DNA from: Elusimicrobia bacterium GWA2_56_46
GTDB taxonomy: Bacteria; Elusimicrobiota; Elusimicrobia; Elusimicrobiales; UBA9959
NCBI GenBank assembly: GCA_001799575.1
Contig: MGTT01000028.1
Span: 1 to 64,000, forward strand
Reading direction: 5' to 3'
DNA: 64,000 nucleotides
The notes under the pieces are model-generated. The model had not been told where the DNA came from, did not search any database, and saw only the letters and a list, made by a program, of their open reading frames with translations. A program made the position numbers and the translations under genes. The stretch's first letter is position 1. Every line of letters begins with the position of its first letter. Shown here one piece after another: positions 3-40,104 of this stretch.

Positions 3-179
3 CCAGTGCCTTATCCCGAACGTATGCCGGTCCCTGCGAAAAAGTTGACCGCGGCTGAACAGAAGGCCGCCTGGGCAAAGATGCGCGATAAAGGCGAGCT
101 TACGGATGAAGGATACAACTACCTGCTAGAGATGCAGAAAGTTATGGAAAGTATGGTCCAAATGAGCGCTGTACGATGA
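3..179 (+). CDS. C-terminal end of an unidentified protein (5' cut by window)
   Basis: Reading frame 3 is open from the first bases of the window to a TGA at 177-179, giving a 58-residue C-terminus (PVPYPERMPVPAKKLTAAEQ... ending QMSAVR). It is charged and looks helical, with no domain I recognise. A strong hairpin with a T-run follows 28 bases after the stop, as expected at the end of a transcription unit, which supports this as the real end of a gene. The start lies upstream of the window, so function cannot be judged. Confidence 0.6.
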   Translation, partial: PVPYPERMPVPAKKLTAAEQKAAWAKMRDKGELTDEGYNYLLEMQKVMESMVQMSAVR

Positions 180-16237: not shown

Positions 16238-18592
16238 TCAATCCTTACCGCCAATAGTCGTCGGACGCTTGGCCACAACTCGGCCGGAAACGTCCAGAAG
16301 TACCACGCTGGCCGCAGTCCCCTCAAGAGAGGCATCTTCTACCAGAAGGCCGGCTTTGCCCTCGGCATCGACCGGTTTAGGGGATGCCAGGCTTGAACCG
16401 GCATCGCTGGCCTTGGTTCTTATGTCTAAGTTCATGCCGGCCACAAAGGGCTCCACTGTTATTCGGCAGCGCATCTTGAGCCATTGCACATCCACGATTC
16501 GGACCACGGTGTCGGACACCGCTGTATCCCCGTGGAAGGTCAACTCGGGGAGCAGGCATTCCTGCAAGCTCAGGCCTCCGTGCGCGTATTGTATGCCGTT
16601 GCCAAAACAGCGCGCTCCGGTGGCATACGCGAAAACCTCGGAGGAATTCCAGTACCATCCAGCCGTGGGGATCTTTGCCTGGGATTCCGGCTTGATGGTC
16701 GCGCATCTTGCCCATCGGCTTTCGGCCAGATACTTTGGCAATACCATCGAGTCCAGATTGCAGGGAGCGAGGAGCCAACCATGATCGGTAACCACATTCA
16801 CCTGCTTCCAGCCGGCGGCAATCAAGGCGTCAATGCGGTTAATCAGAAGTTCCAGGATATCTTGCACTTGGGCGGCCAGTTTGGCCTGGATGGTGTGCCC
16901 AAGCTTGTCAAACTCTCCGTATTCTGTCCACGCCCGGGCATCCGCGTCAAACGGTTTTCCGGTTTCCGCTTCAGAAAGCCACTGGAAGCCCATACCTGTT
17001 ACGAGGTCTTTGAATCGGGCGGAATTGAGGGGCTGCCCCGCATCGCGGATCTCCGGCGAGAAGTCCGCCGGCAGGCGATGCCCGATGAGCTTTTGGGTTA
17101 CTGGGGAGACCGCCGGTTTGGCTGTGGCTGTCACGGTCGGCAAGGCCGCCCATCGTCGGTTCTGGTTGACCCTGAGATTCCTGTTCTGCGCCAACTGGGA
17201 CAACCGGACCCCGAGGTCAAAACGCAGACCATCAACGAACAGGACGCAGGTGCCAGGCTCAATGGTGGCATCCTCTGCCCGGGCATCGTTGCCAGGAAGC
17301 GGATTGGCTCCGACCAGTTTCTGGAAATGCTCGGCAGTATCCTGCAGCCAGGGCAGATACACGGCGTGGATGACTGCAGCGACAGATCGCCAATCCTCGG
17401 CGCTTCGAACCTCGGCCGAGGCGCGCAGAGCGGCATCATCCGCGAGGTATGCCCCTTGCGCGTAAAGGTCGGCCATTGCTTTAGGGGAGTCACCTCCCAA
17501 TGCGGTGGCCGTATGCTTTGCCAGAGCGCTCAGATACTCCATGGCCAGAGCCAAGGGGCTCATGCCGAGCTGCGCCCATACCCATTGCCGCCTGGGGGCA
17601 TGCTCACTTTCCAGCATGGCTATGCGGGCCCTTGCCTCGGCCGGGCCAAGTCCGGAGAACTCTCGCAGGGCTTCTCTGAGGTTCTTCTCCGCTATATCGT
17701 TTTCATCCGGCCAGGTTTCCTTCCTGAAAGGCAGGATAGCCGGTTTTGCTTGGCGCAGTAGATTCGGGATTCCCGGGTAAAGCGAGGGGGCCTCGGCAAA
17801 ACGCTCCCAGACGCCCATCCAGGGACCTTCCGAGAGTCCGAGCTTCTCGCCGGCCACAATCTCACCGTCACCTTCCGGGTCGAAGCTGTATTCAGCTTTG
17901 CATCGGGAGCAGAAGGCCGCCCAGCGCGCCTGGTCCCAACGCTTCCTCGCCTCCGTGGGCTCGCTAATCCATTCGAGAAGGTTGCGCGGGGTGTCCTCGA
18001 CCATGAGCTTGTCGAAATCCTCGGCTTCGAGCCGTTTGCCGCGAAGGCGGAAGAGTGAGGCGACGGCTAACTGGGGCAGCGAACCGCGCATGGCGCGGCG
18101 GGTTGCGTCATCCTTGGCCACATCAAGGCCCAGGCCGCTTTCCTCCGAAACCAAAAACGCCTCAACAGTCCAATCCCGGCCGTTGCGTTGGCACCAGGTG
18201 GTCCCCCTGTATTGGAGTTCGACAAGAGGTTTTAAGCTGTCGGGGCAGTCGTCTACGGCGCGCAGTATCTGTCGGCTAATCTTGGGCAAGTAAACGACAG
18301 GAATCTTGTTTTCAGTAATGGGCATCTCAGCCAGAGCCCGTTCAATCACGCAGCGTAGCCATATGGCCGGTCCCTGGCGATGTTCGGGGGTGTATGACCC
18401 ATACACCAGCAATTCCGGCATTGTTCGGCGCAGTTGCTCAACCAGCGGCTGCCATTGGCCGTCCGTATCAGTCCAAAGGATGGCGGCTGGCGGGACTTCC
18501 CCTGGCGCGTTGCGTCCAGCAACGGAGAGGGACTTTTTGAGGGCTTCGATCAGCGTGGTGTTTTCTCTTTCAGCAGCCATAAAATTAAGCAT
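16238..18592 (-). CDS. pglZ: BREX phosphatase-like protein PglZ
   Basis: A protein of about 784 residues of the alkaline-phosphatase superfamily. The metal site is visible as FVDGLRFDLGVRLSQL (about 460) and VNVVTDHGWLLAP (about 600). The N-terminal part resembles the BREX-1 variant sometimes called PglZ type B, but I cannot assign the type firmly. PglZ is a core component of all BREX types. ATG 18592 (MLNFMAAER) is chosen because TGAGGG lies about 8 bases upstream; ATG 18607 would extend the overlap with abiEii. It overlaps the abiEii stop and is followed at once by brxL, so it is within the operon. Confidence 0.88.
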   Translation of the reverse strand: MLNFMAAERENTTLIEALKKSLSVAGRNAPGEVPPAAILWTDTDGQWQPLVEQLRRTMPELLVYGSYTPEHRQGPAIWLRCVIERALAEMPITENKIPVVYLPKISRQILRAVDDCPDSLKPLVELQYRGTTWCQRNGRDWTVEAFLVSEESGLGLDVAKDDATRRAMRGSLPQLAVASLFRLRGKRLEAEDFDKLMVEDTPRNLLEWISEPTEARKRWDQARWAAFCSRCKAEYSFDPEGDGEIVAGEKLGLSEGPWMGVWERFAEAPSLYPGIPNLLRQAKPAILPFRKETWPDENDIAEKNLREALREFSGLGPAEARARIAMLESEHAPRRQWVWAQLGMSPLALAMEYLSALAKHTATALGGDSPKAMADLYAQGAYLADDAALRASAEVRSAEDWRSVAAVIHAVYLPWLQDTAEHFQKLVGANPLPGNDARAEDATIEPGTCVLFVDGLRFDLGVRLSQLAQNRNLRVNQNRRWAALPTVTATAKPAVSPVTQKLIGHRLPADFSPEIRDAGQPLNSARFKDLVTGMGFQWLSEAETGKPFDADARAWTEYGEFDKLGHTIQAKLAAQVQDILELLINRIDALIAAGWKQVNVVTDHGWLLAPCNLDSMVLPKYLAESRWARCATIKPESQAKIPTAGWYWNSSEVFAYATGARCFGNGIQYAHGGLSLQECLLPELTFHGDTAVSDTVVRIVDVQWLKMRCRITVEPFVAGMNLDIRTKASDAGSSLASPKPVDAEGKAGLLVEDASLEGTAASVVLLDVSGRVVAKRPTTIGGKD

Positions 18593-19604
18593 TAAGCCGG
18601 CCCTCAAGCCTGGCCAATTCCCCTATGATGCTCTCCCAATCCGGAGCGTTCCCGAAAATCATATCCTGCATTGCAGCATAGTCCCGTTTAAGGTTCTCCA
18701 TTCTGGTTTTATCCGGTAGGAGGTGAAAGGTGCCGGGTTTTGCAGTTTCATAATTTGCCCAGGCCTGCGCGAAGAAAAGTTGCTTATGCTGAACCACTCT
18801 CTTTAGAAGATCCTGCTGCCCAATAGCGCGCTGGCCGATATCATGAACAAGCAGGCGGTAGAGGTCATAATAGTGCCGCGAGAGGCGTTCCGCAGCGTGT
18901 TTGCCGGCTGGTCGGTGATATTCCGCATGCAGCAGGGTGGCTTTTTCCCAAAAGGTGCGCTCTGCCGCCAATGTACGCACGCTGCAGGCTGGGGCAGTGA
19001 ACGCTTTTGGGAAGTCCTCGGCGGCGTAAGGTTTGATCTCGGCGTCTATGGCCGGCCAGTCGTCGGAACGTGCGCCCATTTCCAGGCGGATAGCCGGACG
19101 CACATACCGCAGGCTGCCGGAGAGTTCGCTGTGGGGATATTCAAAAATAATAGTCTGCTGGTCCTGGTCATCCAATTTCAGTGTCCAGCCGGAAGTTCCC
19201 AGTACAGATGCAAAGTCCCGGTGCAGTTCCGGCAACAAGCGCTCACGTACGGTTTCCAGACATTTATTGGTAAGGGCCTCAAGCCGCCGCCGTATCTCTT
19301 TCTTACTGATGCCATTCTGCTCCGGGTCATGGTCGTCCGCAAAGCCCAGGTCCCGCCGGCTTAGGGAAAGGTCTACGTCCTCTGAAAAGCGCTCAATAGC
19401 ATTGAACACTTTGGAAAGCGAGGTGCCGCCTTTGAAAATTAGTTGGGGCCTGAATTTCAATACACCAAAAAGCCTGTGTAATGTCCAGCACACCCAGAAA
19501 TCCTTTTCTATTATCGGCGCGGCAATATGAGGCGCATGCCTGCCTTCCGACGCCTGAAATAGTTCGGCGCGTTCCCGCGAAGATTGCTTTGCTACGGTAT
19601 CCAT
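18585..19604 (-). CDS. AbiEii-type nucleotidyltransferase toxin
   Basis: The 339-residue protein has the AbiEii/AbiGii nucleotidyltransferase core: LIFKGGTSLSKVFNAIERF then SEDVDLSLSRRDLG (about residues 56-85), with the GG-S motif and the D-x-D metal site. Members of this family transfer nucleotides to tRNA or act as toxins of type IV toxin-antitoxin systems, and AbiE gives abortive phage resistance (family knowledge). It lies 4 bases after abiEi and overlaps pglZ, inside the BREX operon. AbiEii-like genes do occur in some BREX loci, so it may be either a component or a guard. Confidence 0.82.
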   Translation of the reverse strand: MDTVAKQSSRERAELFQASEGRHAPHIAAPIIEKDFWVCWTLHRLFGVLKFRPQLIFKGGTSLSKVFNAIERFSEDVDLSLSRRDLGFADDHDPEQNGISKKEIRRRLEALTNKCLETVRERLLPELHRDFASVLGTSGWTLKLDDQDQQTIIFEYPHSELSGSLRYVRPAIRLEMGARSDDWPAIDAEIKPYAAEDFPKAFTAPACSVRTLAAERTFWEKATLLHAEYHRPAGKHAAERLSRHYYDLYRLLVHDIGQRAIGQQDLLKRVVQHKQLFFAQAWANYETAKPGTFHLLPDKTRMENLKRDYAAMQDMIFGNAPDWESIIGELARLEGRLNA

Positions 19605-19608
19605 GAGG

Positions 19609-20235
19609 TTATTTCCCTGTCCCGATAATTCGCGCCAGCAGTGGGCGCATCCATATCGCGCCGTGCCGCAGGTCTTTGCGTAATTGCTTTTTCGCCTCGG
19701 GGGGCAGTGCTTTTTGCAGGCGCGCTATTACGTCATCGTTTACGTTTTCCGGCTTAGTGTATCGCAAAGCTTCAAATAGGAGTGAGCTTATTTTTCCCTT
19801 GGCGGCCATACGGCGTGGGGCAACATGTATAAACTTCAGGGAATATGCGCCGATGTTGATATTTCTTGAAGGGCCATCCGTGAGATACACTCGTTGCGCT
19901 GGCACTTGGGTTGATAAACCGAGCAAGTTGGCTGCCAGCGCACCAGATGCTACTACTTTGCTGTCTGTGCGGCGAGCTATGGCTTGTGCTACGGCATCAG
20001 CAGATGGCGGCAGCTCTCCACCTAGTTTTTCATTGAACGATGGGTAATAATAAAGAGAGGTTCCAATCCTCTTTATGGTGCCCACGCGCGCAAGACGTGA
20101 TAGCGCTTGGCGGACAGCAGTCGGGCGTCCCATGTTAAGGAATTCGGTGCCGAAAAACACCGCTCCGCGGCCCCGGTGGATGATCGAGGCGATTATTCTG
20201 CCTTCAATACCTTTTATTGCCTTTTTTTGTTTCAT
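19609..20235 (-). CDS. AbiEi-like antitoxin (DUF6088 / winged helix)
   Basis: The 208-residue protein starts with a winged-helix-like region (NMGRPTAVRQALSRLARVGT then IKRIGTSLYYYP, about residues 32-65) and continues as in AbiEi/DUF6088 proteins (ASGALAANLLGLSTQVPAQR). AbiEi represses its own promoter and counters the AbiEii toxin (family knowledge). A 63-base gap after pglX could hold a small promoter, so the pair might be expressed on its own as well as from the BREX transcript. It is followed after 4 bases by the toxin gene. Confidence 0.8.
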   Translation of the reverse strand: MKQKKAIKGIEGRIIASIIHRGRGAVFFGTEFLNMGRPTAVRQALSRLARVGTIKRIGTSLYYYPSFNEKLGGELPPSADAVAQAIARRTDSKVVASGALAANLLGLSTQVPAQRVYLTDGPSRNINIGAYSLKFIHVAPRRMAAKGKISSLLFEALRYTKPENVNDDVIARLQKALPPEAKKQLRKDLRHGAIWMRPLLARIIGTGK

Positions 20236-28475: not shown

Positions 28476-28527
28476 GCCGGCTAGTTGGCCGGCGAATATT
28501 ATACCACAAATAAATCATTTAATACAA
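28476..28527 (-). promoter_or_regulatory. promoter of the BREX operon with GC-rich palindrome
   Basis: On the minus strand, TTGTAT (28522-28527), an 18-base spacer and a perfect TATAAT (28498-28503) make a strong sigma-70-like promoter. The predicted start, near 28491, lies inside a palindrome with two GCCGGC arms (28476-28481 and 28488-28493). That is a plausible operator for a BREX regulator or a 5' RNA hairpin. The leader to the brxA ATG would be about 24 bases. Confidence 0.7.
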
Positions 28528-28629
28528 AAATACTTTACTTTAAGAGAGATTTCCATAAAAAGTGGGTTGACTCGGCCACTGCATTGAAGGTAGGTTCCTC
28601 TTGTTGGCGACGTGCCGAGGAGGGGCTCT

Positions 28630-28791
28630 ATGCCGAAGAAGCGAAAAATAGTGATTACAGAATTCTCTATCCAGATACATTCAGATGGCGAGATTGTCTG
28701 GGGCGGCTTCGATAAATTCTTGTGGTGGTTATTGACCCGGAAGCCGGCCGAGGGATTTCTGCCGTACGTGCGGAAAATTCAGAAACTCTGA
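28630..28791 (+). CDS. small 53-residue basic protein, unknown
   Basis: ATG 28630 is preceded by GAGGAGGGG at ideal spacing and opens a 53-residue frame (MPKKRKIVITEFSIQIHSDG, then EIVWGGFDKFLWWLLTRKPA) ending in TGA at 28789-28791. The strong ribosome site and the same-strand run of small genes after it support translation. No family is recognised. It is the first plus-strand gene beyond the BREX promoter and probably belongs to the mobile element. Confidence 0.55.
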   Translation: MPKKRKIVITEFSIQIHSDGEIVWGGFDKFLWWLLTRKPAEGFLPYVRKIQKL

Positions 28792-28911
28792 TAGCCAGGA
28801 GCAAAGTGGGTTCTGTTTTTCAGGCGCGAGGAAATGCCTTGCTTTCTTCGAAGAAACCTTGTAGATCATGATCATGCCGACGGGCGGCCGACGTAAAAGG
28901 AGGGTAACAGC

Positions 28912-29109
28912 ATGAATCACGGAGAGTTCGAGAAGCTGAAAAAACGGGTATTCCGATTCCGGGAGCTTAAGAACGCTATAAGCTGGAGCAACAGGTCGAA
29001 GTGGCCGGGCTACATCATTCACGGTGATGACGGTTCTTATTGGACCTGCCGCCCCGTGGATTTCGATCGGCTCATCAAAGCCGGCTACGAGGCCGCGCCG
29101 ATTGTCTGA
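28912..29109 (+). CDS. small hypothetical protein
   Basis: A 65-residue protein (MNHGEFEKLKKRVFRFRELK, later SWSNRSKWPGYIIHGDDGSYW) with a very good ribosome site (AGGAGGG at 28899-28905). No family is recognised. It opens a closely spaced plus-strand series of small genes that leads to the tyrosine recombinase, as is common at one end of integrative elements. Confidence 0.65.
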   Translation: MNHGEFEKLKKRVFRFRELKNAISWSNRSKWPGYIIHGDDGSYWTCRPVDFDRLIKAGYEAAPIV

Positions 29110-29122
29110 ACGGGAGGACGCA

Positions 29123-29335
29123 ATGACCTTTTATCAGGACCTGATAATCAAAGCCACCGGCGTGAATAGGCAGGACGCCGAATACATCGAAGATATCATG
29201 CGGAACGATATCTTCCACTCCACGCTGGACTGGCAGACGCGGGCACGTCTTGTGCGGGCCGCAAAGACGGCGGCGAAGCTGCTGGCCGCATACCGCTCCG
29301 ACCCCGCGCTGGCCGGGTACTTCCCCCGCGCCTGA
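29123..29335 (+). CDS. small hypothetical protein
   Basis: A 70-residue, mostly helical protein (MTFYQDLIIKATGVNRQDAE then YIEDIMRNDIFHSTLDWQTR). ATG 29123 has GGGAGGA about 6 bases upstream and follows the previous stop by 13 bases. The pattern of a short helical protein with a conserved-looking DWQTRARLVRAAKTA segment resembles small phage or integrative-element proteins, but I cannot name a family. Confidence 0.65.
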   Translation: MTFYQDLIIKATGVNRQDAEYIEDIMRNDIFHSTLDWQTRARLVRAAKTAAKLLAAYRSDPALAGYFPRA

Positions 29336-29353
29336 GATCTGAAGGAGGACAAG

Positions 29354-29695
29354 ATGAAGATAATGATAACGCTGGAAGCGAAGCTGGAGATGGGGCAGGG
29401 CGATATTTACGGAACGGCCTTGATGGGCTATATGCCGGCCGGAACCTACTACAAAGACCTCGTGCGCATCTTTGGCGAGCCGCAATCCGGTCGGTCTCCC
29501 GATGGGAAGATTCAGGTGGAATGGTTTGGCCGCATAAACGGCATGGTATTCACCATCTACGATTACAAAACCTGCATGATTCCGCAGGACAACATAGACT
29601 GGCATATCGGCGGCGATATAAAGTTGGTTGCCGCGCTGGTAATTGAGTATTTCAAGAAAGCCAGGTCAGAAGCAGACAAGGAGGTAGGGCCATGA
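29354..29695 (+). CDS. hypothetical protein, alpha/beta, mobile-element operon
   Basis: A 113-residue protein starting MKIMITLEAKLEMGQGDIYG. The middle part GEPQSGRSPDGKIQVEWFGR then INGMVFTIYDYK looks like a small beta-sheet domain; similar text is found in small conserved phage/plasmid proteins without known function. GAAGGAGG lies upstream of ATG 29354. It overlaps the next gene by four bases (ATGA), so the two are coupled. Confidence 0.68.
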   Translation: MKIMITLEAKLEMGQGDIYGTALMGYMPAGTYYKDLVRIFGEPQSGRSPDGKIQVEWFGRINGMVFTIYDYKTCMIPQDNIDWHIGGDIKLVAALVIEYFKKARSEADKEVGP

Positions 29696-30150
29696 AAGCA
29701 AGCGAGGCAAAGGTCGGAGAGAAATATCTCTCCAGGACAGGTATCCCGGTCACGCTGGTGGGATCCAAGGCCGGTAAGTTCCAGATTAAACTGGAAACCA
29801 CCGGCACGGCTGTCGGCGTGAACGGCGATTACGAACTGCGACCGTATGACGAGAAGGGCATCGACAAGGAATCCCGCATACTGCTGAAGCTCAACGGCAA
29901 AGGTAAGGGCGGCAAGACCAAGGCGAAGAAAGCCGGGTCGCTGTCGGCTATTATAGACCCGTATCTGCTGGCTGGGGGCAAGATGGTGGCCGAGATCGCC
30001 GCCGAGGTGACCAAGAAAGCTGGTGAAGCCGCCAAGGGTCGCGATATAAACGCCAATGTCCGCGCCAGACTTGTGTGCTATACGCGCAAAGGCTGGCAAG
30101 TCGTTAAGGACGATAAGAAGCGCGTCAAAGTTGTCAGGAAGACGGCATAG
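29692..30150 (+). CDS. hypothetical basic protein, mobile-element operon
   Basis: The 152-residue protein is rich in Lys and Arg and ends VKDDKKRVKVVRKTA, suggesting nucleic-acid binding. The N-terminal third (ASEAKVGEKYLSRTGIPVTL) looks like a small beta barrel. No family is recognised. It overlaps the previous gene by four bases and precedes the tyrosine recombinase by 12 bases, placing all of 28.9-31.0 kb in one operon. Confidence 0.68.
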   Translation: MKASEAKVGEKYLSRTGIPVTLVGSKAGKFQIKLETTGTAVGVNGDYELRPYDEKGIDKESRILLKLNGKGKGGKTKAKKAGSLSAIIDPYLLAGGKMVAEIAAEVTKKAGEAAKGRDINANVRARLVCYTRKGWQVVKDDKKRVKVVRKTA

Positions 30151-30162
30151 GACAGAAGATTT

Positions 30163-31044
30163 ATGAAGGCGGACACTTTACAGGAAGGCTTTCTCTCGCA
30201 TCTCCGGAATGAGCGCGGCCTGGCCGCAAGCACCGTCGCCACTTACGGCCATCACCTCAAGGCTTACCTGAATACGCTCAAGGAACGCGGTATAGTGCCT
30301 GCCGCCGCCACAAGTAAAGTTGTAACGGCCTATCTGGCCGGACTGCATCGGAGAGGCCTCCGGTCGCCGTCAATATTCTGTGCCGCGATCGCGGTCCGTG
30401 CCTTTTATCATTTTCTGATGGCGCAGGGGGACACTTCGAGCGATCCGACGGCGGACCTGCGGCTTCCCAAGCTAACAATGCGCGTCAGCGAGCCGCTGTC
30501 CATCGAAGAGGTCCGGAGATTGCTGGTATCGCCGTCTGGTCGCAGCTTTACCGGCATCCGCGACAGGGCCATCCTGGAGCTTCTATATTGCGGTCTGCGA
30601 ATCAGCGAGGCTCTGGGGCTGGAGGCGGCGCATGTTCATTTTGACGAGGGATACGTTAAGGTTTTAGGCAAAGGCTCCAAGGAACGGCTGGTGCCGATAG
30701 GGAAGATGGCCGCCGAATCGCTGAGGTGGTATATAAATATAAGGAATAGGCGATTCGCCGCCCCGTCCGCCGCCTTATTCCTATCCCGGTCCGGAAGCCG
30801 CCTCAGCAAGAACGGCTTCTGGCGCAGATTCAAGCTTCACGCCACAAGGGCGGGGATTACGCGGTCAGTCCATCCCCATCTCTTGAGGCATTCGTATGCG
30901 GTGCATCTTTTGGCGGGGCATGCCGACCTGCGGTCGCTGCAGCTTCTGCTCGGCCACAGCAGCTTGCAGACCACTCAAAAATATCTGAATCTGGATTTCA
31001 ACGCCTTGAAAGAAACCTGCCGTCGGGCCCACCCGAGGTTTTAG
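30163..31044 (+). CDS. tyrosine recombinase / phage-type integrase (XerC/D-like)
   Basis: The 293-residue protein has an N-terminal SAM-like DNA-binding domain (about residues 1-90) and a catalytic domain holding the full tyrosine-recombinase set: Arg146 (CGLRISEA), His239 and Arg242 (HPHLLRH), His265 (LGHSS) and the nucleophile Tyr274 (TTQKYLNL). The size and build are those of XerC/D and integron-like integrases rather than large phage integrases. It closes the operon of small genes and its end overlaps that of the convergent gene 31041-31862 by 4 bases. It may resolve or mobilise the element together with, or instead of, the serine recombinase at 38.4-40.0 kb. Confidence 0.9.
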   Translation: MKADTLQEGFLSHLRNERGLAASTVATYGHHLKAYLNTLKERGIVPAAATSKVVTAYLAGLHRRGLRSPSIFCAAIAVRAFYHFLMAQGDTSSDPTADLRLPKLTMRVSEPLSIEEVRRLLVSPSGRSFTGIRDRAILELLYCGLRISEALGLEAAHVHFDEGYVKVLGKGSKERLVPIGKMAAESLRWYINIRNRRFAAPSAALFLSRSGSRLSKNGFWRRFKLHATRAGITRSVHPHLLRHSYAVHLLAGHADLRSLQLLLGHSSLQTTQKYLNLDFNALKETCRRAHPRF

Positions 31045-31862
31045 CGCTGTGCAGGCTGTTTAGCTGACAAGAATTGCTGAAACTGCTCCCGCAAGGCAGG
31101 AAGCATCCGAATAACCGCCTCAACATATCTTCGTTCATCTTTTGACGGGGCTAACTTCCACATCGCAAGTCTCTTCTTAAGCTTGGAAACGTCCGTTATT
31201 TTCAATGGCGGGGCCGGGCTCTTTACTTGCTTGGGGAATTTGGGTTTCCCTTCGCGCAGCCATTGCCGGTAGGCATTAGTGCCGCTCATAAAGATAGAGC
31301 GCATTTGGAGGGAAAGGCCATTGCCTTGCGCTTTGGACTGGACAACCTTATTCCAGTAATGCTGCGGCTTTTCCAAAATCCGGTCATCATCCGTAACTGC
31401 GACCAAATCTATCCAACGGCCAATCCAGTCCCAACGGACCCGCCCTGTGGCAAACAGAGTGTATGGCACCAGAGCGGCAAACCAGAAGTAAAGTTCATAT
31501 CTTCGGATCGGTGCTCCGCGCTTAACGCCGTGCAGCGCGGCGGGCGCGGCTTTCTGAAAAGCCCCGAGGACCGAGAGTTTGTCAGCCAGGGAACTCAGCG
31601 TAACCAATTCCTCGGCGGAGATCGTCGGGTAGTATCCCTGAAGTTCGCCGTATAGCCTGAGAACCGCGCGCTCCCGCGTATTCCAATATTTCTGATCATG
31701 GCGCGGCTTTGCGTATTTCAGAAGGGCGGGCGGCGCAAGTCTCCTGAGAAATTCCAGGAACCGTGGCTCGCCGCCGTATTTTACAAGGCTCTCGGCTAAA
31801 TCCTCGAAAGAATCAGTTTCGAAATTGTCCCCATAGCCGGGGAAGGCATTTCTTTTTTTCAT
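31041..31862 (-). CDS. hypothetical protein, convergent to the integrase
   Basis: A 273-residue protein (MKKRNAFPGYGDNFETDSFE) of mainly helical make-up, ending ALREQFQQFLSAKQPAQR. No family is recognised and no catalytic motif stands out; the repeated basic-aromatic content (YELYFWFAALVPYTLF) is not a clear membrane span. ATG 31862 is chosen because the frame upstream would run into the promoter region of the diverging HTH gene. It is the only minus-strand gene in the element and lies back to back with 31962, so it could be a repressor-like or lysogeny-type gene by position only. Confidence 0.65.
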   Translation of the reverse strand: MKKRNAFPGYGDNFETDSFEDLAESLVKYGGEPRFLEFLRRLAPPALLKYAKPRHDQKYWNTRERAVLRLYGELQGYYPTISAEELVTLSSLADKLSVLGAFQKAAPAALHGVKRGAPIRRYELYFWFAALVPYTLFATGRVRWDWIGRWIDLVAVTDDDRILEKPQHYWNKVVQSKAQGNGLSLQMRSIFMSGTNAYRQWLREGKPKFPKQVKSPAPPLKITDVSKLKKRLAMWKLAPSKDERRYVEAVIRMLPALREQFQQFLSAKQPAQR

Positions 31863-31961
31863 GGTATACCAAATCGCGCCAATCAGGCCGGATTTGGGAT
31901 GTTTTAGAATTCTACAACATTTTCCATGATGAATATGATGAGCGTGAAAGGAGGCGAACAA

Positions 31962-32162
31962 ATGAGAATACTCACCGTCAAAGACATGCTGCAGAGCCTG
32001 TGCATCAGCAGGTCGCAGCTTTACTACTGGGAGGAAGTCGGCAAAATCCCACCGGCCCGGCGGCTATCGAACGGAAAGCGCTACTACCTGCCCCAGGACC
32101 TGGAAAAAATCGAGAGAATGCTGGGGAAAAGTACTGTGATAAAGAGCAATGAGCATGAATGA
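31962..32162 (+). CDS. MerR-like / excisionase-type HTH protein
   Basis: A 66-residue protein with the winged-helix pattern LTVKDMLQSLCISRSQLYYW then EEVGKIPPARRLSNGKRYYL, as in the DNA-binding domain of MerR regulators and in phage excisionases. AAAGGAGG lies 8 bases upstream of ATG 31962. It overlaps the primase gene by 14 bases. The bases between 31862 and 31962 should hold the divergent control region that it may bind. Confidence 0.8.
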   Translation: MRILTVKDMLQSLCISRSQLYYWEEVGKIPPARRLSNGKRYYLPQDLEKIERMLGKSTVIKSNEHE

Positions 32163-34968
32163 AAGCGAGCTGATAGATTCTCTCCTTGGCCGGCTGGATA
32201 AAGTGCGGCAAAACGGCAAGGGCTTCCTTGCCCGCTGCCCCGCGCACGAGGACAAGGAGAATAGCTTGTCTATAAGCACAGGCGACGACGGGCGGGTGCT
32301 GATGAAATGTTTCGCTGGTTGCCGGACCGAAGATGTCCTCGGGCAGCTCGGCCTCAAGATGCGGGACCTGTTCCCGAAACGGCCATCGCAGAAAAGCCTT
32401 ACCGTTTCAGAGTTAGCGGCAGACAAAAAGTTGCCAGAAGACTTCCTTAAAGAGTTGGGTGTCATAGACCAGATAGATCTTTTCGACAAGCAGTTCGTGC
32501 GGATTACTTATCGTCGGCAGGATGGGGCCATGTCGCCGCGTCAGCGCATGCGCTCGGCCCTCAAAGCTAAGGAGGGTTCAGCCTGGTCGAAAGGTAAAGG
32601 CATCTTGATGCCTTACGGCTTATGGAAGCTGTCAATGGCCAAGGAGGCGGGATATCTTGTTCTGGTCGAAGGCGAAAGCGATTGTTGGTCGCTCTGGTTC
32701 CATAAATTCCCGGCACTTGGCCTCCCCGGCGCCGAGATGGCCAAGCTCCTGCAGCCGGAGCAACTTGAAGGTATTCCGCGTATTTATATTTTGCAGGAAC
32801 CTGATCAGGGCGGGGAAAGTTTTGTCAGAGGCGTTGCGCGGCGATTAGCTGAACTTGGGTGGCAGGGTTCGGTGTCTGTAATCACGCTAAACGGTATCAA
32901 AGACGCTAATGACCTGCATAAACACTCACCGGAGAATTTCGAGGCCGCGTTTAGGAAAGCATTAGAAGCCGCCGTTCCTGCGCCTCAGCCGAAAGATAAA
33001 GAAACAGATGCGCCATGCGTGGCCATTCCGGCGATTTGCGCTGATAATAACAACCTTACAGAAGTGACGGGCCTATCCTGGGCGGCTGTGCATAACGCCA
33101 ATCGCCCGCCGAAATGGTTCCGTTGCGGCGGGATACCCATGCGGATCGAGTCCAATGATGACAGCCGCCCGATTTTACGTGATATAACCCAGGACCGGCT
33201 GCGCCACCTGCTCGCCCGGCATATCTTCTGGTACATCAAGAATAAAGATGGCGACCGTGTGCCCGCTTTGCCGCCCATACACGTGGTTAAGGATATGCTG
33301 GCCACGCCGAATATCCCGCTTCCTGTCCTGACCAGAGTAGTGGAATCCCCGGTCTTTGCCCCTGACGGCCGCCTTGAGACCGCGCCGGGCTATCATGAAG
33401 CAAGCCGGACCTATTATGCTCCCGCCCTGGGATTCATCGTCCCTACTGTCTCCGATAAGCCTGATGGCGAAGAATTAACCAAGGCCAAAAATTTGCTAAC
33501 CGAGCTACTGTGCGATTTCCCGTTCGTTTCCGAAGCCGAGCGCGCCCATGCCGTTTCTATGCAGATACTGCCGCATGCGCGTGATCTTATAACCGGGCCG
33601 ACCCCGCTTTACCTGATAGAAGCGCCCTCGCCCGGCACGGGAAAAACCCTGATAACCGATGTTATCACCTATCCCGCGCAGGGCCGGCCGGTAACCACCA
33701 TGACCGAGGGCCGCGATGAGGACGAATACCGCAAACGCATCACGGCCAAGCTGATGACCGGCCCGTCTATTGTCATGCTGGATAACATCAGGCGGCGTCT
33801 GGATTCGGCCGCATTTTCAGCGGCCATCACGTCGCCGTGCTGGGAAGACCGGGTACTGGGGGAATCAAAGATTATCAGCCTCCCCGTGCGCTGTATGTGG
33901 CTGGCGACCGGCAATAATCCGGCGCTTTCGAGCGAGATGGCGAGGCGCACTGTCCGGGTGCGACTGGACGCCAAGATTGATCAGCCCTGGCTGCGGCAGA
34001 GTTTCAGGCATCATGATTTGCGCAGCTGGGTAAAAGAGCATCGCGGGGAGCTGGTATGGGCCAGCCTTACGCTTATCCAATCCTGGCTTAAGGCGGGGCG
34101 GCCATTGGCCAAAGGTCGGACGCTTGGCATGTTCGAATCCTGGTCTGAAGTTATGGGCGGCATCCTGGGTAACGCGGGCATTAGCGGGTTTCTTGGTAAT
34201 CTGGAGCAATTTTACGCTGATTCCGATGCCGAGAGCGCCGCCTGGCGCGTGCTTGTTAAAGCGTGGTGGGATAAATTCGAGGGAGCTGAAGTAGGCGTTT
34301 CCGAACTATTCGAATTGGCTAGCGCACTTGATGACGGGCCTGAGTTGGGAAAGGGCAGCGAAAAGAGCCAGAAGACGCGCTTGGGGCAGGAGCTTGTCAA
34401 AATGCGCGACCGGCAGTTTGGCGAGCTGCGTATTGTCCTGGCAGGCGAACGCCAGCGGGCAAAACGCTGGAAGCTGATCTATATGATCGGCCAGGGCAGT
34501 GAACCTGTGAACCTTAGTGAACCTAATTCAACCCTACCTATAGTTGATGAAAATAATATTCTAAACACTAAGGTAATAGGAAAAGGTTCACCTACGTTCA
34601 CAGGTTCACTTACTCAAGTAGCGCAAACCCTACCTTCAAGTCCAGCCGAATCGCTTTTTAATCCTGACGAACTCGCTTTGCTAAAGGATTCCCCGCCAGA
34701 AGACGTGGCCGGGCTCACGAATCTTAAAAAGGCCTTTCCCGGCAGCACCGTAAGGGCCGTGTTGCCCGCGCCTACTGAGGAACCCATATCCGACACTGAG
34801 CGCAAAGCACTGGAGATGGAGGCGCATCTTAAAGAAGTGTGCAGGCGGAGAAACCTCGCTTTTGCGGATATAGAAAGGTTGTGGCCGTCGGTGGAAAAGC
34901 GCCGCCGCCAGCAGAAAAAGGAGGAACGTGAAAATGAAAAAGATAAAAACGAAAAACCCGGCTGGTGA
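32149..34968 (+). CDS. mobile-element DNA primase-helicase (CHC2-like Zn, TOPRIM, P-loop ATPase)
   Basis: The 939-residue protein starts with a CHC2-type zinc finger (FLARCPAHEDKENS ... MKCFAGCRTEDVLGQLG, about residues 27-65). A TOPRIM domain follows (LVLVEGESDCWSLWFHKFPA, about 165-250; IYILQEPDQGG), then an ATPase with Walker A IEAPSPGTGKTLITD (about 485-500), like DUF927-type plasmid and satellite replication proteins. The C-terminus is basic (KRRRQQKKEERENEKDKNEK). It should prime and unwind the element's own DNA. ATG 32149 overlaps the HTH gene; ATG 32155 is an alternative. Such proteins are typical of satellites and integrative elements with autonomous replication. Confidence 0.85.
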   Translation: MSMNESELIDSLLGRLDKVRQNGKGFLARCPAHEDKENSLSISTGDDGRVLMKCFAGCRTEDVLGQLGLKMRDLFPKRPSQKSLTVSELAADKKLPEDFLKELGVIDQIDLFDKQFVRITYRRQDGAMSPRQRMRSALKAKEGSAWSKGKGILMPYGLWKLSMAKEAGYLVLVEGESDCWSLWFHKFPALGLPGAEMAKLLQPEQLEGIPRIYILQEPDQGGESFVRGVARRLAELGWQGSVSVITLNGIKDANDLHKHSPENFEAAFRKALEAAVPAPQPKDKETDAPCVAIPAICADNNNLTEVTGLSWAAVHNANRPPKWFRCGGIPMRIESNDDSRPILRDITQDRLRHLLARHIFWYIKNKDGDRVPALPPIHVVKDMLATPNIPLPVLTRVVESPVFAPDGRLETAPGYHEASRTYYAPALGFIVPTVSDKPDGEELTKAKNLLTELLCDFPFVSEAERAHAVSMQILPHARDLITGPTPLYLIEAPSPGTGKTLITDVITYPAQGRPVTTMTEGRDEDEYRKRITAKLMTGPSIVMLDNIRRRLDSAAFSAAITSPCWEDRVLGESKIISLPVRCMWLATGNNPALSSEMARRTVRVRLDAKIDQPWLRQSFRHHDLRSWVKEHRGELVWASLTLIQSWLKAGRPLAKGRTLGMFESWSEVMGGILGNAGISGFLGNLEQFYADSDAESAAWRVLVKAWWDKFEGAEVGVSELFELASALDDGPELGKGSEKSQKTRLGQELVKMRDRQFGELRIVLAGERQRAKRWKLIYMIGQGSEPVNLSEPNSTLPIVDENNILNTKVIGKGSPTFTGSLTQVAQTLPSSPAESLFNPDELALLKDSPPEDVAGLTNLKKAFPGSTVRAVLPAPTEEPISDTERKALEMEAHLKEVCRRRNLAFADIERLWPSVEKRRRQQKKEERENEKDKNEKPGW

Positions 34969-35308
34969 GCCGCCGGAGAAGTTGTATACCGGAGGTCCGC
35001 TGATAAGCTGGATAGCCACAAGCGAGTGGGAGGCCGTCTATGCGGTGCCGGAAGGCGAGCGGCTATTCGAAACCAGCCCGTTGATCGGCTGGGCGCTGGT
35101 AGGCGTACCCAAAGATGGCACGAAAAGGCTAATCGCAGAGGTTGCTGGTGTTCGCGCCAAGATAGACGAGCATTTCTTCCTGTGCGGCCATGAAAAACAC
35201 TTTCTTGGGTATCGGCAAGCGGGCGTGAATGCCGACGAGCATTTCAAGAAAGAGGCACTTGCCTATCGCGAGCGCATAAAGCTGGAAGGACGCAAGGGGA
35301 AGCTATGA
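34934..35308 (+). CDS. hypothetical protein, mobile element
   Basis: A 124-residue protein (MKKIKTKNPAGEPPEKLYTG, later FLCGHEKHFLGYRQAGVNAD). ATG 34934 has AGGAGG about 9 bases upstream; a GTG at 34928 is also possible. The first bases overlap the end of the primase gene in another frame. No family is recognised. The four-base overlap with the next gene (35305-35308) shows coupling. Confidence 0.65.
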   Translation: MKKIKTKNPAGEPPEKLYTGGPLISWIATSEWEAVYAVPEGERLFETSPLIGWALVGVPKDGTKRLIAEVAGVRAKIDEHFFLCGHEKHFLGYRQAGVNADEHFKKEALAYRERIKLEGRKGKL

Positions 35309-35898
35309 AACGTAAACCGCAGGCCCGGCACAAGACCGAGGACATCCAGAAGGCTGTCGCCAGGATACAGAACGGCGAGTCGCTTAGCGTCGTAGCTAAG
35401 GATGTCGGCGTTTCAAAGTCTCTCGCCTCGTATTGGGTGGAGCATGCCGACCGGCTGGTTCCTGCGGATTCTGTTTCGTCGTCACCTAAGAGTATACTGC
35501 GCACGCGCCGGTTCATCGAGCAATGCGCCGTCACTATCGCTCTCGCGTTTGAGCGGTTGAAGATCGAACTCAAGAAAGATTCGCCTAAGGGCGTGAAAGA
35601 TTTGGGCTTGTTGATTGCGGTTTTGCACGATAAACAGACTCAGGCCGCGCAGAGGCTTGAGGTCCCGTCGTCGGATGACGACCAGGAATGGTCGGCTTCC
35701 GAGGACACTCTGCTCATCCTGAGGCAGCATAAGTCGAGCAAAGTCAGCACACCTTCTGAAAAAAATATCGTCGAGGCCAGCGTGGACGTGTCCGCCCTCG
35801 AACAACAAAAGACCGCGCCGCCGTCGGACGCGCCAGTCGCCGCATCGCCGCAGAAGGCGGGCGAAACGTCGGCGTTACCGCGTCCTGGAGGCAATTGA
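35305..35898 (+). CDS. HTH protein, candidate terminase small subunit
   Basis: The 197-residue protein has an N-terminal helix-turn-helix of the transposase/terminase-small type (EDIQKAVARIQNGESLSVVA then KDVGVSKSLASYWVEHADRL, about residues 12-52). The middle is helical and the tail is low-complexity and Pro/Ala/Ser-rich. Its position, two genes ahead of the terminase large subunit, and the DNA-binding head make it a candidate small subunit. This is inference from position; the family is not certain. Confidence 0.65.
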   Translation: MKRKPQARHKTEDIQKAVARIQNGESLSVVAKDVGVSKSLASYWVEHADRLVPADSVSSSPKSILRTRRFIEQCAVTIALAFERLKIELKKDSPKGVKDLGLLIAVLHDKQTQAAQRLEVPSSDDDQEWSASEDTLLILRQHKSSKVSTPSEKNIVEASVDVSALEQQKTAPPSDAPVAASPQKAGETSALPRPGGN

Positions 35899-35939
35899 AT
35901 GTGCATTCAAGTGACTATTTCTCGTCGGAGGGCAGGGCT

Positions 35940-36158
35940 ATGAAGACCGCCGGAAAAAATAGCGTAAAAAAGCGGGCCAATAGGCGGCAAGCTCCCCTCT
36001 CGCCCGAGGCTAGAACAAAAACTGGAAATAATTCCGCCAAGCGTTCTAGAACGGGCAAATTCCTCGACGAGAGCGAAACCGGCTGTTTTAGAACGGTTTG
36101 TAGAACAAGGCACTATTTCGTAGAACGGGAGGCTCAAAATGGCACAACCAAAGCGTAA
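35940..36158 (+). CDS. small basic protein overlapping the terminase start
   Basis: A 72-residue, Arg/Lys/Thr-rich frame (MKTAGKNSVKKRANRRQAPL) with a ribosome site (GGAGGGC). It overlaps the terminase gene by 20 bases. Five TAGAAC motifs (36011, 36047, 36089, 36101, 36121) fall inside it. Four are read in one frame as an x-R-T repeat and the fifth in another, so the frame may be a by-product of a repeated DNA site rather than a needed protein. Confidence 0.4.
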   Translation: MKTAGKNSVKKRANRRQAPLSPEARTKTGNNSAKRSRTGKFLDESETGCFRTVCRTRHYFVEREAQNGTTKA

Positions 36159-37713
36159 AACACGGGCTCAGGCGGTGGATCCGCTGTCTGATTTCTTCAC
36201 ATTCGCCAGGGAGACATTGGGCTATGACGCGCTCGGCCCGCTTCACCTGTCCTGGTATGAGGCACTCCTGCGCCACGACCATATGCTGCTCTTATCGCCG
36301 CGCTCGCATCTTAAGACCACGGCGGTTACTGTCGCGTACGCGCTCTGGCGGCTGGCCAAGAACCCGAACCTGCGTATACTGCTGCTTAATGAAATCCTGG
36401 CAAACGCGCAGAGCTTCCTCCATGAGATAAAGGAGCATATCATCAAGAACAAGCGTTTCAAACGGCGCTATGGGCGGCTGGACGTTAACGCCGGGAAATG
36501 GACGGATACCTCTATCACCATCCCGCGCACGAAGATAATGAAAGAGCCGTCCATAGCTGTCTGCGGTGTCCTGGGAACGGTAGTCTCCATGCACCCGGAC
36601 CTTATCCTCGCGGACGACCTGATTTCTGTTAATAATTCGCTTACGATGGGCCAGCGTAACAAGACCTCCCATTGGTTCCGCTCCGTGGTGCTGCCTATGC
36701 TGGAGCCGAAGGGGCAAATAGTCGTGATAGGGACGCGCTATCACTATGCCGACCTTTATTCTGAAATCCTGACCGATCCGGGGTTCGCGAGCTGGCATAA
36801 GATAGTGGAGCGGGCGCAATGGGTGGACGAAGCCGGCCAGAAGCACATCCTGTTCCCTAAACGGTTCCCGGAGGAAGAGCTTCAACGGCTCATGCTGGAA
36901 ATGGGCTCCGCTTCGTTCAACTGCCAGATGCTGAACGACCCAAGCGGTCAGGAGGGCGCGGACTTCAAAGTAGCATGGCTCGACCAAGGTAGATACGAGC
37001 AGCTGCCAGACCGCCCGACTATGTTTACGGGCGTGGACCTAGCTATCGGGCGCTCCGAAGCTAATTCGCGCTTTGCCATAGTCACTATCGCGATGGACCG
37101 CGACGGCACATGCTATATAGTAAACGCCTACCGCGACCGCATCCCATTCGCGGAGCAGCTTAAAGCCGTCAAGCGCATTCATAAGCTGTACCATCCCCGG
37201 CTTATAACTATAGAGGCAAATGGTTACCAGAGCGTTTTCATCGAGACGCTGCGCACCGATCCGGAAACGCGGCTGCTGCCGTTAAAGCCCATCAATACGC
37301 AAGGCGATAAGCACGCCCGGCTGCGCGGGCTGGCGCCATTGCTTGAAAGCGGCGCTATCCGGTTGCCACGGCGCGATATCGGGAACTGGGTGGGGCAGCT
37401 TGAGGAGGAACTTTTACAGTTCCCGCATGGGGCGAACGACGATATGCTGGACGCCTTATGGATAGCGTTGCAGGCCGTAGAAGCCCAGCGCGTTGAGCCG
37501 AGGATTTTATACACGAGCGACCTCGGCGGTGCGGATTCCGAATACTTCGGCCCCCAGAAGCGGAAATGCCATCATTGCGGCAAAATCAGCAAGCCGGAGT
37601 CGGCCATCTGTTCCCACTGCGGGAAACGCTTTATGGAAGATTACATGGACCCAGGCGGGCATGATACGGACCTTGCGGAAGCCCTGCGGCGGTCCCTTGA
37701 GAACAATAGATAA
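36139..37713 (+). CDS. phage-type terminase large subunit with C-terminal zinc ribbons
   Basis: The 524-residue protein has the terminase ATPase (Walker A-like SPRSHLKTTAVT, about residues 53-64; Walker B DLILADDLIS, about 155) and an RNaseH-like nuclease domain with acidic residues in FTGVDLAIGRSE (about 296) and GANDDMLDALW (about 432-442). An extra C-terminal part has two CxxC pairs, KCHHCGK and AICSHCGKRF, i.e. a zinc-ribbon pair, which is unusual for TerL. Terminases cut and package DNA into proheads. No portal, protease or capsid gene follows, so packaging would need a helper phage. Confidence 0.88.
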   Translation: MAQPKRKTRAQAVDPLSDFFTFARETLGYDALGPLHLSWYEALLRHDHMLLLSPRSHLKTTAVTVAYALWRLAKNPNLRILLLNEILANAQSFLHEIKEHIIKNKRFKRRYGRLDVNAGKWTDTSITIPRTKIMKEPSIAVCGVLGTVVSMHPDLILADDLISVNNSLTMGQRNKTSHWFRSVVLPMLEPKGQIVVIGTRYHYADLYSEILTDPGFASWHKIVERAQWVDEAGQKHILFPKRFPEEELQRLMLEMGSASFNCQMLNDPSGQEGADFKVAWLDQGRYEQLPDRPTMFTGVDLAIGRSEANSRFAIVTIAMDRDGTCYIVNAYRDRIPFAEQLKAVKRIHKLYHPRLITIEANGYQSVFIETLRTDPETRLLPLKPINTQGDKHARLRGLAPLLESGAIRLPRRDIGNWVGQLEEELLQFPHGANDDMLDALWIALQAVEAQRVEPRILYTSDLGGADSEYFGPQKRKCHHCGKISKPESAICSHCGKRFMEDYMDPGGHDTDLAEALRRSLENNR

Positions 37714-37728
37714 GCGCATGGGAGGCAT

Positions 37729-38172
37729 ATGAAAATCACTGAAATCCAGGAACACTTGAAGCGGCTCGGCCTGCGTAAAGCATACCGGCCTTACGTGGAG
37801 CCTGAAAGCGGAGCGGCGATGCTCAAGGTCCGCCGTCCGGCGCAGATTGTGGATGGCCGCTTGCACGGCTCCGAGATAGACCTCTATTCCGCCGAGACGT
37901 TCCGCGTCTGGACGGCCAAGAAGAAGAAAGCCAAAACCCTGGCGCAGAAGCATAAGCTGCAGGTCCGGCTGCTGGACGGGGAGGCCGAGTTGTTTGTCCC
38001 GGCCGCCTTAGCGGATACAATTCTGTCCGCGTTCGGAGCATGGACCAGACGCGAGCTGACTCCAGAGCAGTTGGAAGCCGCGCGGGCGCGTATGCGGAAG
38101 GTCCGTAATGGCCTTTCCTTGCGGAAAATCCCTGTCAAGAACGAGGTTACAGGAGCCGGAGGCGGGTATTGA
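37729..38172 (+). CDS. hypothetical protein after terminase
   Basis: A 147-residue basic protein (MKITEIQEHLKRLGLRKAYR). The segment AETFRVWTAKKKKAKTLAQK suggests nucleic-acid binding. No family is recognised; it is too small and without the features of a portal protein. GGGAGGC lies upstream of ATG 37729, 15 bases after the terminase stop, so it is in the same operon. Confidence 0.65.
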   Translation: MKITEIQEHLKRLGLRKAYRPYVEPESGAAMLKVRRPAQIVDGRLHGSEIDLYSAETFRVWTAKKKKAKTLAQKHKLQVRLLDGEAELFVPAALADTILSAFGAWTRRELTPEQLEAARARMRKVRNGLSLRKIPVKNEVTGAGGGY

Positions 38173-38178
38173 GGCTCT

Positions 38179-38376
38179 ATGCACCTGACTGCCCAGGATA
38201 TAGCCGAGTTTCGCAATCTCTACCGGCAACACTATGGGGTGGATCTGAGCGAAGCCGTCGCCCGCGAAAAGGCGGAGCAGTTGCTCCGGCTTGTTAAGGC
38301 AGTGTGGGGCAGTAAATCTCAAAGTCAATCCGGTGGGCAGCGAAGCCCGCCACCTCCCGAATTACATAAGCCTTGA
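38179..38376 (+). CDS. small hypothetical protein
   Basis: A 65-residue protein, mostly helical (MHLTAQDIAEFRNLYRQHYG then VDLSEAVAREKAEQLLRLVK). The pattern xxFRxLYxxxYGxxLSxxxAxExAxxLLxLV is that of small conserved phage and integrative-element proteins often found next to recombinases. It starts 6 bases after the previous stop. Role unknown. Confidence 0.7.
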   Translation: MHLTAQDIAEFRNLYRQHYGVDLSEAVAREKAEQLLRLVKAVWGSKSQSQSGGQRSPPPPELHKP

Positions 38377-38415
38377 TTTCAGGCGGAACGGAGTATATCA
38401 TTCAGGTGTAAGATT

Positions 38416-40035
38416 ATGCAGACATTTACGAATAACGCGAAACCGCACATGAAATATTTCATGTATGCCCGCAAGTCCACGGATTCCGAGGACCGGCAGG
38501 TAGCGTCCATCGATTCCCAGATAGGCGAGTTGTTGAAGATCGCCGGACGGGACGATTTGGATATAGTGGAACGCTTTGCGGAATCCAAGTCGGCGAAAGC
38601 TCCGGGCCGGCCGGTTTTCAACCAAATGATAAAGCGCATAGATCGCGGCGAGGCGCAGGGGATTATCTGCTGGAAGCTGGACCGCCTCGCCCGTAATCCG
38701 ATTGACGGCGGCACAATATCCTGGATGCTTCAGCGGGGCAAGCTGCTGCATATCCAGACCTATGACCGCGCCTATCTGCCTACCGACAATGTGCTGATGA
38801 TGTCGGTCGAATTCGGGATGGCGAACCAGTATGTGCGGGACCTGGCGACAAACGTGAAGCGGGAATTGCGGCGCAAGGCGGAAATGGGCTGGCGTCCGGG
38901 TCAGGCGCCGACCGGCTACCTGAACTCGCCTGACAAGGAGAAAGGAAAACGCATTATCACCCCGGACCCGAACCTCTTCCCTGCCTTACGGCGCATGATT
39001 GGAATGATACTTGCCCGGACGCATACTCTCCCGCAGGTTCACGCGCTTGCGACCAACCAATGGTGCCTGAGGAACCGCAATGGCCGCAAAATAGCGCTGA
39101 GCACTTTTTACAGGATGTTGTCCTTGCCATTTTACTACGGAGCTTATGAATACCCTGGAGGCAGCGGGATTTGGCATCATGGCAATCACGAGCCGCTGCT
39201 CACCAAGGCTGAATTTGATAAATTGCAGGCCATCATTAAGAGCGAAACGACCACGCGGCCCAAAAGCTATTTCTTTGCCTACAGAGGATTGCTGCACTGC
39301 GCCCAATGCGGGGCTTTGGTTACAGCGGAGAATAAACATAAGCGGACTTCCAGCGGCAGGCTTATCGATTACATCTATTACCACTGCACCAGGCGCAAAG
39401 ATCCCAATTGCAGACAGAAATGTATCGAGGAAAAAGATTTGGAGAAGCAGGCGAAGGAACTGCTTGAGCGCATTGAAATCCCCCAGGATTTTTGCGACTG
39501 GGCGGTTCAGAAATTGAGGGGTGAATGCGGCAGGGAAACAGAGATGCGGGCCAACATTATTGACCAGCAACGCAAGGCTTATGACCAGTGCGTTCAGAAA
39601 CTGGACAAGCTGCTGGAACTGCGGCTTTCAGGGGAAATAGACGAGGATCAGTTCCTCGCCAAGAAAGAGGAACTTATCAAAGAAAAGGCCAGACTGACCG
39701 AACTATTGCGAGATAGCGACAACCGCGTGGATGCCTGGCTGATCCAGGCTGAAAAGGCGCTCAATTTCGCGCAAACAGCCAGGGAATCATTTGAAAGCGG
39801 GGATGATACCGTCAAGCGCGAGATTCTGGCCGCACTGGGCACCAACTGGACGCTGAAAGACGGGAAACTGGACGTTCTTATAGAGGAACCGCTGCGGCAT
39901 ATAGGCAATTGCGCCAAAATGGTTCGAACCCTGCAGGAAACGTCGAAAAGCGGGTTCGAACCAGAAAAAAACGCGGCCCGTCGTCGAGAAACGAGTGGGT
40001 CTGCGTATGAGTGTCTAAAAATCCTCCGGGACTAG
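38416..40035 (+). CDS. large serine recombinase (site-specific integrase)
   Basis: The 539-residue protein has a resolvase-type catalytic domain with Ser21 in YARKSTDSEDRQ and the arginine in GIICWKLDRLARN, then the Recombinase domain (about residues 150-280), a zinc ribbon (LLHCAQCGALVTAENK ... CRQKC, about 294-340) and a long coiled coil (about 375-440). This is the complete build of large serine integrases. The gene stops at TAG 40033-40035, which lies inside the 3' end of tRNA-Gln (40024-40094, opposite strand). The last residues are thus encoded by the tRNA, as expected if integration took place there. It most likely integrates and excises the element. Confidence 0.9.
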   Translation: MQTFTNNAKPHMKYFMYARKSTDSEDRQVASIDSQIGELLKIAGRDDLDIVERFAESKSAKAPGRPVFNQMIKRIDRGEAQGIICWKLDRLARNPIDGGTISWMLQRGKLLHIQTYDRAYLPTDNVLMMSVEFGMANQYVRDLATNVKRELRRKAEMGWRPGQAPTGYLNSPDKEKGKRIITPDPNLFPALRRMIGMILARTHTLPQVHALATNQWCLRNRNGRKIALSTFYRMLSLPFYYGAYEYPGGSGIWHHGNHEPLLTKAEFDKLQAIIKSETTTRPKSYFFAYRGLLHCAQCGALVTAENKHKRTSSGRLIDYIYYHCTRRKDPNCRQKCIEEKDLEKQAKELLERIEIPQDFCDWAVQKLRGECGRETEMRANIIDQQRKAYDQCVQKLDKLLELRLSGEIDEDQFLAKKEELIKEKARLTELLRDSDNRVDAWLIQAEKALNFAQTARESFESGDDTVKREILAALGTNWTLKDGKLDVLIEEPLRHIGNCAKMVRTLQETSKSGFEPEKNAARRRETSGSAYECLKILRD

Positions 40036-40094
40036 GATTCGAACCTAGACAAAGCGGTTCAGAGCCGCTTGTGCTACCGTTACACCATCCCGGA
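40024..40094 (-). tRNA. tRNA-Gln (CTG)
   Basis: On the minus strand the acceptor TCCGGGA (40094-40088) pairs with TCCCGGA (40031-40025), with G as discriminator. The anticodon stem AGCGG/CCGCT encloses the loop CTCTGAA with anticodon CTG. The T-arm holds GGTTCGAATCC. U1-A72 is the bacterial glutamine identity pair. CCA is not encoded. The 3' end overlaps the serine recombinase stop codon. Confidence 0.93.
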
Positions 40095-40104
40095 AGATTG
40101 GATT

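Follow-up and report, generated by a model that had tools for sequence, protein, structure and literature searches.

An element of about 11.5 kb in the stretch of Elusimicrobia DNA analysed here (64 kb, hereafter the window, which forms the start of a 236-kb contig of a 2.66-Mb draft genome) is probably an integrated satellite of Elusimicrobiota phages. With somewhat less assurance, it is taken to represent a distinct satellite family of this phylum, whose members would steal empty helper proheads by means of a complete terminase of their own (TerS, TerL and a private palindrome beside a shared cut core) while encoding neither portal nor capsid. No fewer than two lineages of TerL would belong to such a family, in which recombinases and replication genes would be exchanged around a constant TerS-site-TerL unit. 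An earlier note on this DNA had suggested a new satellite type carrying the adjacent BREX-CBASS genes as cargo. The satellite part of this suggestion has gained from the recurrence of capsid-less elements and from a packaging orientation opposite to that of prophages, while the cargo part is not supported, as the element has its left end downstream of the defence genes, in the interval that separates BREX from the outermost small gene.

All genes that had been named for positions 28,630 to 40,094 are present and intact, in the order small-gene block, tyrosine recombinase, AlpA-like regulator, primase-helicase, TerS-like protein, TerL and large serine recombinase (LSR), and on the plus strand with one exception. 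The small-gene block opens with a gene for 53 aa (28630..28791), which is 56-66% identical to the outermost prophage gene of G002:C27, G013:C22 and G013:C7. It is followed by three small genes of the same terminal module (65, 70 and 113 aa; 28912..29695), of which those at 29123 and 29354 share 61-71% and 52-57%, respectively, with prophage terminal genes, and by a gene for a 152-aa protein (29692..30150). The latter serves as marker of the terminal module, being 70-78% identical in the prophages of G002 and G013 (two in the latter), and is found as well in satellites G178:C49, G211:C81, G211:C124 and G211:C126. The XerC/D-like tyrosine recombinase (30163..31044; PF00589, 3e-39) shares 61% with its counterpart in G175:C69 and about 40% with those of G178:C49 and G211:C81. 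Next to it, an intact gene on the minus strand (31041..31961) encodes a 306-aa protein that gave no Pfam, PHROG or NCBIfam match and only a poor structure model (pLDDT 52). In PICIs, a repressor is found at the position divergent from the regulator-primase operon, which is where this gene sits in the window, and it is possibly a regulator as well. The operon itself consists of an AlpA/MerR-type HTH regulator (31926..32162; MerR 8e-9, Phage_AlpA 5e-5) and a 939-aa primase-helicase (32149..34968; phrog_10537, phrog_6088) with CHC2 zinc ribbon, primase and helicase regions, which has homologs at 57-61% in G211:C81, G178:C49 and G211:C85. As a family marker, the primase was discarded: its relatives occur in 40 IMG/VR loci, and those inspected resemble ordinary phages.

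The packaging genes are preceded by a gene for a 124-aa protein (34934..35308), 45% identical to the gene at the same place in G211:C126. The TerS-like small terminase (35305..35898), located upstream of TerL, is predicted to combine an N-terminal HTH with a helical hairpin in a model of moderate quality, whose fold-search matches stayed below significance; it shares 48-51% with satellite and 31% with prophage genes directly upstream of TerL. Its designation as TerS thus rests on position, size, homology to the prophage gene at the same position and predicted topology, while the identities of primase and TerL are firm. TerL (36139..37713; phrog_38, 8.5e-84; Terminase_6C) has kept its ATPase and nuclease residues. 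Two small genes (147 and 65 aa; 37729..38376) fill the interval up to the LSR, as two do in G211:C81 and G211:C124, and the LSR (38416..40035; Resolvase, Recombinase and Zn_ribbon_recom domains) is the likely integrase.

The absence of portal, capsid, protease and tail genes, likewise claimed before, was borne out: all open reading frames are accounted for, and a set of HMMs for virion proteins (portal, protease, capsid candidate, adaptor, tail), made from genes of related prophages, gave no match in positions 1-42000 of the window. The prophage genes used for this purpose had been confirmed via PHROGs (portal with minor head domain, head protease, head-tail adaptor, minor tail, tape measure), the 300-aa capsid candidate in the set being a candidate outside this confirmation. 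The earlier note had also proposed to look for the same gene order in related genomes, and this yielded five further capsid-less TerS/TerL elements from three genomes, belonging to three other species and each to another family of the class, so that six elements in four genomes are known together with that of the window. Common to them is the order replication genes, TerS, TerL, recombinase. G211:C81 has the order of the window (152-aa marker, tyrosine recombinase, an unassigned gene, small genes, primase-helicase, small gene, TerS, TerL, two small genes, LSR), and G178:C49 is its near relative on a contig cut in TerL. In G211:C126, another helicase is followed by TerS, TerL (72%), LSR and a marker-like gene. 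G211:C124 comprises TerL (94% to that of G211:C81), two small genes, LSR and a marker-like gene; as host genes follow directly on its LSR end, one end of this element is seen in the chromosome. G175:C69 consists of TerS (48%), TerL (73%), an excisionase-like HTH gene and a tyrosine integrase. Two further replication types occur within the same architecture. A portal after TerL was found neither in the window nor in the five elements, within 2.5-26 kb of downstream sequence (the contig of G178:C49 ending in TerL), while 18 TerL loci of related phages have it no more than 0.7 kb downstream of TerL. All known relatives come from draft contigs, of which several are cut at their ends, and terminal overlaps as a sign of circular contigs were not found. 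Genome G211, with its three TerL-bearing satellites, additionally holds the PICI-like locus G211:C85 (7531-8370), which has TerS and a site of the TerS-TerL type without TerL on a 13-kb contig.

The closest matches of the window TerL are on two Elusimicrobia groundwater MAG contigs (JACQPE010000108.1 and JACQPG010000158.1), to which a genome scan for TerL added no others; viral contigs gave no match, either with the single sequence or with an alignment. Phylogenetically, the TerLs of the window, G175:C69 and G211:C126 form one clade and those of G211:C81 and G178:C49 another (support 100/100 in both cases), and a single common satellite clade is not rejected (p-AU 0.37). Members of the former clade share a C-terminal zinc ribbon that is absent from the aligned prophage TerLs. 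With pairwise dN of 0.03-0.54 against dS from 0.48 to saturation, dN/dS stays far under 1 in four genes (those of TerL, TerS, primase and recombinase), and purifying selection acts on the first three of them.

Between terS and terL, prophages and satellites have a conserved site in common, which is a new finding. It is composed of a palindrome at the terS stop and, after about 25 nt, a near-palindromic core with the consensus TTCTCCGwCGGAGAA, followed after about 40 nt (39-42 nt in most loci) by TTGCGTAAAAATCC. In the window, the palindrome TTGAATGTGCATTCAA (35895..35910) is a candidate TerS-binding site and the core TTTCTCGTCGGAGGG (35918..35932, plus strand) a candidate terminase cut site, with TAGCGTAAAAAAGC (35960..35973, plus strand) as third conserved block. 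A combined site scan over 2.03 Mb gave 42 hits at 19 distinct places, all directly after terS and none elsewhere, the hit of the window lying exactly at the threshold and G211:C126 falling below it. Given its position and symmetry, the site is probably a packaging site, cos or pac. The palindrome reads TTGAATGnnCATTCAA or a close form thereof in the window, G175:C69 and G211:C126, ACCTAATnnnnnATTAGGT in G211:C81 and G178:C49, and CATAATGnnnCATTATG in most prophages. Satellites have thus kept the core and changed the palindrome, which is what a separate DNA specificity for each TerS would predict.

A search with TerL across the phylum also revealed full prophages in many families, such as G002:C27 and G013:C7, and these bring up the question of whether the element is a phage of the G002/G013 type that has lost its head and tail genes while keeping both ends and the packaging genes. 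The earlier note had named relatives with capsid and tail genes between the same borders as the sign of a deleted prophage, and relatives with such genes do exist. They share the left terminal block with the window: its genes between position 28630 and the tyrosine recombinase correspond to the terminal module of G002:C27, G013:C22 and G013:C7, with identities of up to 70-78% for the best-kept gene and with the 28630-like gene outermost, and in the circular form the module lies where theirs does with respect to the LSR. TerL (54%), TerS (31%), the layout of the TerS-TerL site and an LSR at the end of the element (at a tRNA in G013) agree as well. The close kinship to a phage that the left module implies counts against the satellite reading, and the missing virion genes and an LSR at a tRNA would suit a defective prophage too. 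The prophages differ, however, in their complete head and tail genes, in their palindrome and in the orientation of the packaging block. The LSR was mapped in seven prophages, and in every one of them TerL is directed away from it; in the four LSR satellites, TerL is directed towards it. Whereas a defective prophage has the borders and order of an intact phage with a part missing, here the left module is common and the primase-TerS-TerL block is inverted. The explanation was already weakened by G211:C81 and G211:C124; elements of other families repeat the order of the window, and two more replication types are known. A plain deleted prophage is improbable in view of the inverted packaging block, the separate TerL clades and the purifying selection on the intact genes of TerL, TerS and primase. 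Recurrence in three other species rather suggests a lasting way of life and not a broken virus. Less credible still is a chromosomal island that is moved by its recombinases only and carries TerS and TerL as passengers without a packaging role. Islands with primase and recombinase but no TerL do occupy comparable sites (G174:C47 at tRNA-Gln, and G188:C124), but TerS, TerL and the intervening site have been conserved as a unit in six elements, and dN/dS is low.

Where the satellite begins is a related matter. The minus strand at 6.86-28.5 kb encodes BREX, into which an AbiE pair is inserted, a CBASS system that includes a phospholipase, and other defence genes, and in a larger element of 6.8-40.0 kb, BREX, AbiE and CBASS would be satellite cargo. 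This alternative, which concerns the borders and overlaps with the satellite reading, is rather unlikely. In its favour, native synteny with G002:C6 ends at 6806 (to the left of this point, native chromosome resumes), the region of 6.8-28.5 kb yielded no recombinase gene, and a homologous BREX is cargo inside prophage G013:C7; a left border at 6.8 kb was in fact favoured at first from the end of this synteny. It was replaced by a bracket for attL at 28497..28590, where the match to DNA upstream of BrxA in G013:C7 ends (at about 28496) and prophage terminal homology starts (at about 28586-28606 for G002:C27 and G013:C22). This break leaves BREX outside, and the 28630-like gene is outermost in prophages. 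At the right end, the 3' end of the LSR gene overlaps that of tRNA-Gln(CTG) (40023..40095, minus strand), the likely attB, by 13 nt (40023-40035), which places the true end at about 40,023 rather than 40,094. With both borders so placed, the element spans about 28.55-40.02 kb, and BREX lies outside. No exact repeat of at least 13 nt within the window marks a duplication of the tRNA 3' end as attL, and an arm-symmetry search for attL returned chance matches only. Regarding the flanking chromosome, contig C19 probably precedes contig C28, as its last 90 bases match window positions 34-115 and it encodes an OPT transporter, a gene found near this tRNA-Gln in relatives.

The homologous BREX of prophage G013:C7, which resides at tRNA-His, is complete (G013:C7 105712-118364) and lies between late genes and terminal module, with identities to the window of 94% for BrxL, 88% for BrxB and 84% for BrxC. 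It does not contain the AbiEi/AbiEii pair that is found inside the BREX operon of the window between PglX and PglZ (18585-20235). In the late operon of the same prophage, the portal gene has neighbours on its two sides that encode a Mom-like DNA modification protein and a DNA methyltransferase (L024 13248-18015).

The 3' end of a tRNA gene is an unusual target for large serine recombinases. The overlap of LSR and tRNA nevertheless recurs in eight other loci, at tRNA-Ser, -Gln, -His, -Glu and -Asp (G000:C26 3517, G002:C35, G174:C47, G105:C2, G101:C57, G212:C136, G013:C7 and G013:C22). In prophage G105:C2, the LSR adjoins tRNA-Gln(CTG), meaning that this site is also used by prophages. CCA is encoded after tRNA-Gln in several relatives and missing in the window. 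The other tRNA-Gln (TTG) of the window's genome (G000:C26 15548-15590) is followed by GGATTTTTAGGCAGTCATACG, nearly identical to the window sequence after tRNA-Gln(CTG) and possibly the footprint of a related integration. The second LSR of this genome (34%; G000:C26 82-3603), at tRNA-Ser and beside an IS-type transposase at the contig end, belongs to another element.

According to the definitions in PMC6092414, PMC10690885, PMC10803314, PMC4936722 and PMC11389934, satellites in general carry an integrase and replication genes of their own, lack virion structural genes and form a recurring conserved unit distinct from prophages, and all of this applies to the window element with its six occurrences in four genomes. 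Satellites are, in addition, mobilised in helper-phage particles, as is proposed below for the window element. PICIs, including the Gram-negative type, are about 12-15 kb long and have an integrase, an AlpA/MerR-type regulator, a primase module, TerS in some cases and no structural genes (PMC6092414). The window element has integrase, regulator and primase module in PICI order, but it brings its own, catalytically preserved TerL where PICIs use that of the helper. Furthermore, PICI attachment sites are never used by prophages and PICI genes are exclusive to PICIs, whereas here both the tRNA site and the terminal module are shared with prophages. Capsid-forming PICIs (cfPICIs) encode TerS and TerL as well (PMC10690885), but the window element lacks their portal, capsid, protease, connector and HNH genes. 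PICMI, P4-like and AH14b-type satellites have their own integrase and primase and need helper particles (PMC10803314, PMC4936722). In contrast to the window element, however, PICMI has no terS, AH14b no identifiable terminases, and P4 relies on the terminase of its helper, which acts at a cos site of P4; matches to P4 sid or P4 regulators were not seen among the Pfam matches of the element. The Mulch/Flayer satellites of Streptomyces, as described in PMC10690885, possess portal and capsid genes alongside TerS and TerL but are short of key replication genes, which is the reverse of the situation in the window. TerS and TerL without portal and capsid are not described in these five sources, nor did a literature search, covering mostly non-subscription sources, return a satellite-helper system for Elusimicrobiota. 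Judged by these descriptions, a whole terminase without procapsid is unusual for a satellite and sets the element apart from the compared families.

For the satellite, a life cycle can be proposed from its gene content. We infer that the helper is a phage related to the Elusimicrobiota prophages, which would trigger the satellite via the AlpA-type regulator. The LSR, perhaps together with the tyrosine recombinase, would excise it from tRNA-Gln, and its primase-helicase would replicate the DNA. TerS may then bind its own palindrome after terS, while TerL would cut the shared core, dock on the helper portal and fill the heads of the helper with satellite DNA. For helpers whose genomes measure roughly 50-60 kb, several satellite copies would be expected per head unless capsid size is changed. 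The portal of this phage group was found in genomes G174, G175 and G188 and in neither G211 nor the window's genome (G000); G175 has a satellite contig plus a separate phage contig with TerL and portal. That the window's genome contains no helper prophage of this group is a point against the satellite reading, as are the draft state of the relatives and the fold search for TerS.

Among the satellite families compared here, some use the terminase of the helper, others contribute TerS alone and others a whole head, and the architecture of the window occupies the space left between these. A satellite of this kind would provide the complete motor and in this way compete with the phage for the prohead. 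The architecture also makes separable what lies in TerS and palindrome with regard to packaging specificity from what lies in TerL and portal. Finally, the element points to a satellite-helper system in the Elusimicrobiota.
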